From Chrysoperla carnea (Eukaryota > Arthropoda > Insecta > Neuroptera > Chrysopidae), in NCBI RefSeq assembly GCF_905475395.1, contig NC_058337.1, positions 138,577,172 to 138,641,171 on the forward strand: a DNA stretch of 64,000 bases. Direction: 5' to 3'. This document shows, piece after piece, positions 44,880 through 53,424 of this stretch. Numbering within the stretch: position 1 is the first letter of the stretch; each line of letters starts with the position of its first letter. The notes below the pieces were generated by a model. That model made no database searches, was not told the origin of the DNA, and saw nothing but the letters and a program-made list of their open reading frames with translations. A program made the position numbers and the translations under genes.

Positions 44880-44988
44880 ATAGCTTATTTCACTAAGGTC
44901 TTTACATGGTAGTAATGTTTAATAGCTCTTATAATAAGGCATTCCAAAAATTCAGTGTCAATATCTTTATGGATTCAGCTATACCATC
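44880..44988. repeat. Small palindromic-element-like insert in the ProQ-like gene
   Basis: 109 bases absent from the paralogues at the same codon position (between LDG and PATLVTK). Its ends are weakly complementary (GTATAGCTTATTTCACTAA against GTATAGCTGAATCCATAAA). This fits the rickettsial habit of repeats inserted inside genes. Confidence 0.5.
44984..44988. repeat. Target-site duplication CCATC (left)
   Basis: Five bases directly before the left LTR, repeated at 52917-52921 directly after the right LTR. 5 bp fits BEL/Pao integrases. Confidence 0.92.
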
Positions 44989-45825
44989 TGTTAGGGACAT
45001 TTCACAAGTTACTGTTTTTATTTTTTTTTCTTTAGTGATTTTAATTAATACTAAGTTGGCACCAACTGACGTTGTCAAAACATCCGCCAATAACAGCGTT
45101 CCTATTACAGTATTCTGTGTGCTGTATAAGTTGTTTACGTATTTTCAAACGGGTCGGTTTCGGAGCCGACCCATTGAGTTTATAACTTTTTACTTTTTCA
45201 TATCATAATTAATTCGTTTTTCGATCTGAATAGATCATTTCTTTCGGTTGATTTGATTAATCAATCTAAAAATTTAATTTAAAAGTCGAGTCAGTGATTC
45301 TGTTCTTTTTTTCAAAAAGTTTCAATTTTTTCAATGGTGAAACGCGTGGTGTTCAGCATTTAATTTAATTTAACAATGTGTTAAAGCTTAATTTCTTAAT
45401 CGAATTTTATCTTGATAATCAAGTTTAATTTTGAATTCATATCGAGAAAATACAAGTGAACGACATGTGATTTAGTGCATTGAACTAAGCATTTTATACT
45501 TTTCGCGCCTTTGAGGTGATTTAACGCATATTGCAATTTTTATTATAAAAAAGGTGTATCAATCAAAGCCAATAAACTATCATCAAAAAGAGCGTGAACA
45601 AATTCACCGCAAAGGTTTGATAAATCCTCCTAAATTCCTTTTTTCCTGAGTTTTATCCGATCAAACCTTTAAATAACAACTTTTATTCTTCTGCCGTCAA
45701 CCTGCATAAAAAACTGGTGAGTACATATTCTTTTTCATACAGTCCAAATTTCTAAAACGTTCTTAAAATCGCTAAGTGTTGGGAAATATTTTATTTTTTG
45801 TGAACCAGCGATCAACGCCCCAACA
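44989..45825 (+). repeat. Left LTR, 837 bp
   Basis: Begins TGTTAGGGACA and ends CGCCCCAACA (TG...CA ends). Differs from the right LTR at about 45042 (T/C), 45174 (T/A) and 45512 (T/A). Confidence 0.95.
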
Positions 45826-46637
45826 TTTTTTGGTCACTTCAAGCCAAATATACGTTTTTTTCATTCATTTCAAATAATCACGTGTTTTTTCGTGTTTTTT
45901 GTTTTTGACAAGCGGTTGCGTAATAGCTTGACAATAACAACCCTAGTTTTTTCACCAGGCCAGTCGACGCCATTTTGATATTTCATATTTGACAAATAAT
46001 AAAACTACTCTTTTCATAAAATAGATGTCACTATTGACTATTTTTTTGTTCAAATCACAAATCATAATATTTACAATATTTTTCAATTGTCAAAATTTAT
46101 TAAATGACATTTCAAAATAAATGTAAACAATTTACTTTTTTTGACTTTAATTGTTAATTTCAATTTTTCTGAAAAAATTTAAAATTCTTTTAATTAAATC
46201 GCATTTGATTAAAATTTCGTATTAATTCAATATTATTTAATACTCAATTGATTTAATTAGTTTCAATTTCTGGTTATTGACTTTGATTGCATTTTTTTTT
46301 AAATTAATTAATTTCATACTTTTATTTCAATTCACTTGCATTCTAAAAAGTTTAAATTGTTTATTCTTGGGTATCAAATAAATTCATTATTCATTCATTG
46401 ATTTTCATATATAATATTAACTGCCCGAGTAACTCTGCGGATTTACTCTAATTTATTAAAAATTTTCTTTTGATTTCAAACAAATTTAATTTCAGTGGTT
46501 CTGTAACTCGATTGAAATCATCAACGTATCGCTTATCAATAATATTTTAATTATTTAAAGTCATTTGATTGTTTTATCAGTCCTTCATCAATTAATATTA
46601 TTCCTTTTTTCAATTTTATTTGCATTTTCATTCAAGT
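45826..46637 (+). other. Retrotransposon leader with primer-binding-site candidate
   Basis: TGGTCACTTCAAGCC at 45831 starts with the TGG that pairs to a tRNA CCA end, 5 bases after the LTR. The tRNA was not identified. The rest is about 75 percent A+T with no gene. Confidence 0.6.
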
Positions 46638-51874: not shown

Positions 51875-52079
51875 TCCCATTTCATCCTTCGCTCCCCTAT
51901 TTATTTATTTTTTTTCTCGAAATTCAAATATTTTATCCGTTAGATTTCAAATATTCTTTGTTTTCTTTTCTTTCATGTACATTGTCGACACTTTCAATTT
52001 GTTTCGGTCCCATGTAACTGAATTTTTCCCTTTTTGTTTAGGTAGGCTCAAATTCTATCGAATTTGGGGGGGCGACTTA
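51875..52079 (+). other. 3' untranslated region with polypurine-tract candidate
   Basis: T-rich, no gene. GAATTTGGGGGGGCGA at about 52060-52074, a few bases before the right LTR, is the candidate plus-strand primer. Confidence 0.6.
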
Positions 52080-52916
52080 TGTTAGGGACATTTCACAAGT
52101 TACTGTTTTTATTTTTTTTTCTTTAGTGATTTCAATTAATACTAAGTTGGCACCAACTGACGTTGTCAAAACATCCGCCAATAACAGCGTTCCTATTACA
52201 GTATTCTGTGTGCTGTATAAGTTGTTTACGTATTTTCAAACGGGTCGGTTTCGGAGCCGACCCAATGAGTTTATAACTTTTTACTTTTTCATATCATAAT
52301 TAATTCGTTTTTCGATCTGAATAGATCATTTCTTTCGGTTGATTTGATTAATCAATCTAAAAATTTAATTTAAAAGTCGAGTCAGTGATTCTGTTCTTTT
52401 TTTCAAAAAGTTTCAATTTTTTCAATGGTGAAACGCGTGGTGTTCAGCATTTAATTTAATTTAACAATGTGTTAAAGCTTAATTTCTTAATCGAATTTTA
52501 TCTTGATAATCAAGTTTAATTTTGAATTCATATCGAGAAAATACAAGTGAACGACATGTGATTTAGTGCATTGAACTAAGCATTTTATACTTTTCGCGCC
52601 ATTGAGGTGATTTAACGCATATTGCAATTTTTATTATAAAAAAGGTGTATCAATCAAAGCCAATAAACTATCATCAAAAAGAGCGTGAACAAATTCACCG
52701 CAAAGGTTTGATAAATCCTCCTAAATTCCTTTTTTCCTGAGTTTTATCCGATCAAACCTTTAAATAACAACTTTTATTCTTCTGCCGTCAACCTGCATAA
52801 AAAACTGGTGAGTACATATTCTTTTTCATACAGTCCAAATTTCTAAAACGTTCTTAAAATCGCTAAGTGTTGGGAAATATTTTATTTTTTGTGAACCAGC
52901 GATCAACGCCCCAACA
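52080..52916 (+). repeat. Right LTR, 837 bp
   Basis: Same length and ends as the left LTR; three differences seen, about 0.4 percent. Followed directly by CCATC. Confidence 0.95.
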
Positions 52917-53424
52917 CCATCTAAAATAAAACGCTGAGCACCTTCAACAAGTAGTTTTTTATATCTATAATCAGAGCAATATCTTCTAAAGAATCTACGA
53001 ATTTGTTGTTTTGAGAAATTATCGTTCTCGAGTTCTATAACTTCTTTACTAATACCTATAGCAAGAGGTTTTGCAGGAATAGAAAAACACAGAGGATATT
53101 TTGTTTGCAGTAATTTTAAGATTTGTTTAGATTCATCTTTCCATCTTGCCAGTTTAGCTTTAAGGGCTTCTTGTTGCTCTAGAGCTAAAGCCTTGACTTT
53201 TTCTGCTTTAATTTGTTCTTTAGCCAATTTAGCGTCTTGAGCTTTATTGCGACTTACATTAGGTTTAACTGATTTAGCTCCAGAGTTAACCTGAGCATTA
53301 GCAGGCTTTATTACTTGCTTATCGAAGACTACCACTTGTTTTTTAAGGATTGGCGTAATAATACTGACTGGTACTTTAAGCTTTAATGTAGATTTTGCTG
53401 TTTGCATAATATTTTAATTAGCTA

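Follow-up and report, generated by a model that had tools for sequence, protein, structure and literature searches.

Host transposons with exact target duplications interrupt Rickettsia-derived DNA on chromosome 1 of a green lacewing, Chrysoperla carnea

The 64,000 nucleotides analyzed here (the window; C1:138577172-138641171, C1 denoting chromosome 1 of Chrysoperla carnea, a green lacewing) carry a BEL/Pao retrotransposon inside a ProQ-like gene of rickettsial type, and we consider it almost certain that a block of Rickettsia DNA had joined lacewing chromosome 1 before this host element struck it. In the course of events that we propose, a large block of Rickettsia DNA would have become part of chromosome 1 and would then have evolved as host DNA, undergoing decay, partial duplication and insertion of host transposons. 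A BEL/Pao element whose family also has members at other places in the lacewing genome would have been reverse transcribed, and its integrase would have cut the ProQ-like gene, by then already damaged, with a stagger of 5 bp and placed the copy there, giving CCATC on both sides. A first-pass annotation of this DNA had favored a rickettsial segment residing in an arthropod nucleus and later hit by a transposon, a reading that is supported by continuous junctions, by the host LTR family and by three further insertions.

The element is bounded by two LTRs of 837 bp with TG...CA ends, located at window positions 44989-45825 (5′ LTR, + strand) and 52080-52916 (3′ LTR, + strand). They align without gaps and differ at 3 of 837 positions, and the LTR lengths given in the first-pass annotation proved exact to the base. 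The same is true of the pentamer CCATC that it had noted beside each LTR, which occupies 44984-44988 on the left and 52917-52921 on the right (neither assigned to a strand). Based on the base composition of the window, the chance of a 5-bp match at these flanks is about 0.0017. BEL/Pao elements produce target-site duplications of 4-6 bp, and short duplications of this kind are found both here (CCATC) and at a sister copy of the element (CTTGC).

BEL/Pao elements are recognized by the order gag-protease-reverse transcriptase-RNase H-integrase, by a Pao-type A17 peptidase and by the domains DUF1759 and DUF5641. Between the two LTRs, a first coding frame (46620-50861, +; an ORF scanned with Pfam as two pieces) extends from gag to the RNase H region and contains the gag part DUF1759 (47061-47483, +; E = 2e-27), an aspartyl protease-like stretch (48087-48233, +; E = 3.6e-4), the reverse transcriptase domain RVT_1 (49017-49403, +; E = 8.2e-8) and Peptidase_A17 of the Pao retrotransposon family (49569-50012, +; E = 9.6e-45). 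It is followed by a second coding frame (50753-51874, +; ORF and Pfam) with integrase H2C2, rve and DUF5641. DUF1759, RVT_1, Peptidase_A17 and DUF5641 scored over the Pfam cut-offs, and the aspartyl protease, Integrase_H2C2 and rve under them; read with these scores, the domains stand in the BEL/Pao order, and the assignment to this group made in the first-pass annotation fits them. The two coding frames overlap in different frames, whereas the sister copy has a single open frame across the corresponding place, indicating that the polyprotein of the copy in the window is broken.

As the same annotation had recognized, halves of one ProQ/FinO-like gene lie on either side of the element (PF04352, E = 1e-16). 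The 5′ part of this rickettsial gene is at 52922-53407 (− strand; Pfam and paralogue alignment) and its 3′ tail at 44805-44864 (− strand; limits set by eye). Two ProQ-like paralogues in the window, at 56406-56846 (+) and 61705-62205 (−), align across the site. Because a single GATGG is present at the matching position in each of them, both paralogues serve as natural empty sites. The stretch between the target site and the 3′ tail (44865-44983, −; TATAGCT/AGCTATA ends) is missing in both paralogues, leaving 103 gap columns in the MAFFT alignment and 119 unaligned bases by BLAST. It probably stems from an earlier, small insertion next to the target site, and, as far as can be judged from this comparison of sequences, the ProQ-like gene was therefore probably already damaged when BEL/Pao inserted. 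This stretch of about 100-120 bp resembles a small bacterial mobile element. When we searched the assembly for the exact insertion site without BEL, 16 matches were obtained, among which the only one at the same locus was the window itself; of the others that cover the site, the longest was an 85% paralogue, so that no true empty allele was found. A search of the genome contigs with the ProQ-like ORF found no relative, probably owing to the run of this ORF into the LTR, and pcrA served as the query in its place.

The LTR family is spread over lacewing chromosomes and unplaced scaffolds, with at least 41 matches on C1, C3, C4, C5, C6, C201 and C328 when the best 40 of 112 candidates were scored; two of them are the element's own LTRs, 19 are on C6, and the LTRs of the sister element are omitted from this set. 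Judged by its size, C6, with about 7% of the genome and 19 of the 41 listed matches, is probably the X chromosome. Since the closest LTRs elsewhere among the matches listed are only 88% identical, no direct source copy is found among them. The sister BEL/Pao copy (C1:139388926-139397834, −), with both LTRs, interrupts a gene for biotin carboxylase (pccA by our reading), whose two parts match profile positions 24-257 and 251-395. CTTGC stands at each side, and the LTRs of the sister copy align over 959 columns with no mismatch and a single gap opening. Compared with the window LTR, the sister LTR reaches 95.9% identity over 291 bp and only 77% over the remainder, while the internal pieces that we compared are 94.7-97.9% identical to the window element. 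The sister copy, whose interior was read in part, contains a further LTR-like stretch there and may be a nested element.

The assembly analyzed comprises 559,487,470 bases in 337 contigs, of which C1 accounts for 139,979,878 bases; it is a version not identical to the published inChrCarn1.1, for which the genome report gives 399 contigs in 337 scaffolds (PMC10116181). That report calls the sequenced animal male once and female elsewhere. Rickettsial DNA, interspersed with host sequence, begins near C1:138.272 Mb and continues to 139.404 Mb or beyond, a distance of about 1.13 Mb that was read by samples, that measures span and not rickettsial share, and within which assembly gaps are possible. 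When the opening 9 kb of the window served as the query, 51 of the 52 listed matches fell within C1:138.278-139.386 Mb and one lay at C1:116.68 Mb (best 40 of 140 candidates scored), most of the listed matches being to one IS200-type transposon. A piece at C1:116679560-116680521, about 22 Mb from the block, is 98% identical to window positions 2149-3106. At the left edge, a host satellite that is also present at other places enters recG (identified by profile) without any N at about C1:138.272 Mb; here, and where host elements lie within rickettsial genes, host and rickettsial sequences are continuous. At C1:139.404 Mb we found genes for a transposase of IS200 type and an integrase of phage type that resemble those of the window, and the samples at 139.41 and 139.42 Mb, not firmly classed, had no genes of either type. 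Among 24 sampled stretches, 5 match window DNA and the rest were judged by their ORFs alone; the 30 stretches that were fetched contain 0 N.

Immediately to the left of the window, host repeats adjoin the middle of pcrA. We forecast the far end of the pcrA element as AGTAGAAGAG with a duplication of 6 bp at its side; a search with this pattern located it at C1:138563600 with 0 mismatches. Two other places matched with 2 mismatches, and one match came from the control in which the pattern was reversed. The element thus delimited (C1:138563611-138576797) is 13,187 bp long and has identical inverted ends of 389 bp, with ACTATT duplicated around it. After its removal, the pcrA flanks align gap-free over 670 nt with pcrA of R. 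rhipicephali (84.2% identity) and are 98.7% identical to a second copy of this rickettsial stretch. The same approach applied to the second copy revealed a 15,055-bp element (C1:138348619-138363673) with fitting ends and CATATG on both sides (one match in the control). Maverick/Polinton transposons have long inverted ends of the form AG...CT, make 6-bp target duplications and carry genes for DNA polymerase B, an integrase and an ATPase. By their AG...CT ends and their duplications, the 389-bp ends with ACTATT in one case and the fitting ends with CATATG in the other, both elements appear Maverick/Polinton-like. The block therefore contains four host insertions with exact target duplications: CCATC, CTTGC, ACTATT and CATATG.

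The rickettsial stretch at window positions 1-8881 (+), which starts at pcrA and extends beyond an ORF for a ribosome hibernation factor, has its second copy at C1:138339791-138348618, and 122 of the 8660 sites aligned between the two are different (1.41%). For the eight ORFs compared between the copies, the 84 differences are distributed as 25/29/30 over codon positions 1/2/3 (chi-square p 0.78), whereas the control, pcrA of two Rickettsia references, gave 15/13/96. This even distribution, unlike that of the control, indicates that the two copies decay without selection. By contrast, the 30/21/128 distribution between the window pcrA (3′ part at 64-1248, +, the gene being cut upstream of the window by the 13,187-bp host element) and that of R. 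rhipicephali suggests that the bulk of the divergence of this gene arose under selection, before the transfer. Each copy of pcrA carries its own frame-breaking indel; ubiH has decayed into two pieces (11252-12397, +) that match its profile at positions 15-127 and 210-390, and three ORFs fall short of the length of their profiles, namely pgeF, a deformylase and one like glutamine synthetase. The one strong match to bacterial 16S among those listed (1191 bits; C1:139382497-139383821) lies inside the block and lacks about 160 nt internally, counted on the alignment; with the best 5 of 2049 candidates scored, four further matches were above the cut-off, at 316-357 bits. The codon-position spread, the broken genes and the damaged 16S are all of the kind seen when sequences decay without selection. 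One family search each was made in the assembly for recA and ftsZ: for recA there were no more than two matches, both weak at 29 and 27.5 bits (cut-off 325.3; the control genomes gave a match in 14 of 14, above the cut-off in 10), and for ftsZ there was no match (controls, 13 of 14).

The donor was a member of the genus Rickettsia, since the pcrA protein is 91% identical to that of R. rhipicephali and 90% identical to that of the Rickettsia of Omalisus, while the next is 65% identical (best 80 of 571 loci). Rfam identifies two group II introns, at window positions 17382-18011 and 31814-32459, and the rickettsial DNA also has several ORFs for transposases. If an insect mutation rate of 2.8e-9 per site per generation is assumed, the LTR difference of the BEL/Pao element would correspond to about 0.64 million generations (range 0.13-1.87) and the difference between the two copies to about 2.5 million generations, so that the duplication of the block probably predates this BEL insertion.

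Could the element have entered a living Rickettsia chromosome within an insect cell, the bacterial contig being placed in chromosome 1 only later? In content the flanking DNA is rickettsial and includes transposases and group II introns, and C. carnea is known to carry Rickettsia, nearly identical to those of C. lucasina and C. pallida (PMC5557424). A bacterial chromosome is, however, at odds with host satellite and host elements that are continuous with rickettsial genes, with four host insertions of two kinds and with substitutions spread evenly between the two copies. The first-pass annotation had already ranked this possibility as the less likely one, and the damaged 16S together with the undetected recA and ftsZ bears it out; we regard insertion into a living bacterium as extremely improbable. 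An assembly artefact, in which a symbiont contig was joined to or mixed with insect contigs, might be suspected because the published assembly is scaffolded (PMC10116181). Yet the four target duplications with fitting ends have a joint chance of about 7e-13 (window base composition, duplication lengths as found), the joins restore known gene alignments and the fetched stretches are free of N, which makes an artefact very unlikely.

Rickettsia fragments could also have been brought into the chromosome inside Maverick-like elements, with the BEL insertion following later. Such carriage has a precedent in three Curculio species, where 93-97% of Rickettsia-derived HGTs are inside Mavericks according to a preprint (PMC13419823), and Maverick-like elements are indeed present in the lacewing block. 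Both of them nevertheless interrupt rickettsial sequence with 6-bp duplications and therefore came after the rickettsial DNA, and the left outer side of the block is plain satellite; we consider this route improbable. The reading that we prefer remains that the Rickettsia block joined chromosome 1 and was then hit by the host BEL/Pao element. In our estimation it is as likely as not that a single Rickettsia genome contributed a megabase-scale part that reached the germ line in one piece, close to the end of chromosome 1, and became the landing ground for host transposons seen today. If so, copy divergence, LTR ages and target duplications would together form a dated record of a bacterial genome turning into insect repeat-rich DNA.

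A span of more than 1 Mb in a chromosome-level genome suggests that Rickettsia transfers can equal known Wolbachia cases in size, and the insertions and two diverging copies provide a relative clock for decay. There are practical consequences as well: contamination filters could delete this region of the lacewing genome, and Rickettsia surveys of this lacewing by PCR or 16S could pick up nuclear DNA and not live bacteria. None of the open-licence papers listed in our searches was seen to describe Rickettsia DNA in the nucleus of C. carnea, and the word Chrysoperla does not occur in PMC10246020, PMC9894559 and PMC11540323.

The element shares with BEL/Pao LTR retrotransposons (PMC3118150) its LTRs, Pao-type gag, reverse transcriptase, A17 peptidase, integrase and DUF5641, and we found no difference in the element itself; its target alone is unusual. 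Events of this kind are already known from studies on Drosophila ananassae (PMC4299567) and Curculio (PMC13419823). In D. ananassae, Wolbachia DNA (nuwt) resides in chromosome four, whereas in the lacewing the donor is Rickettsia, the host is a neuropteran and four exact target duplications are resolved in a chromosome-level assembly. The Curculio weevils are alike in having a Rickettsia donor, insect chromosomes as the recipient, an association with Mavericks and pseudogenes. In Curculio, however, the transferred sequences are mostly inside Mavericks and on every chromosome, while in the lacewing they form a block near one chromosome end, with host elements inserted into it. In its extent, Rickettsia donor, neuropteran host and four exact host insertions, the lacewing block is a strong new example.
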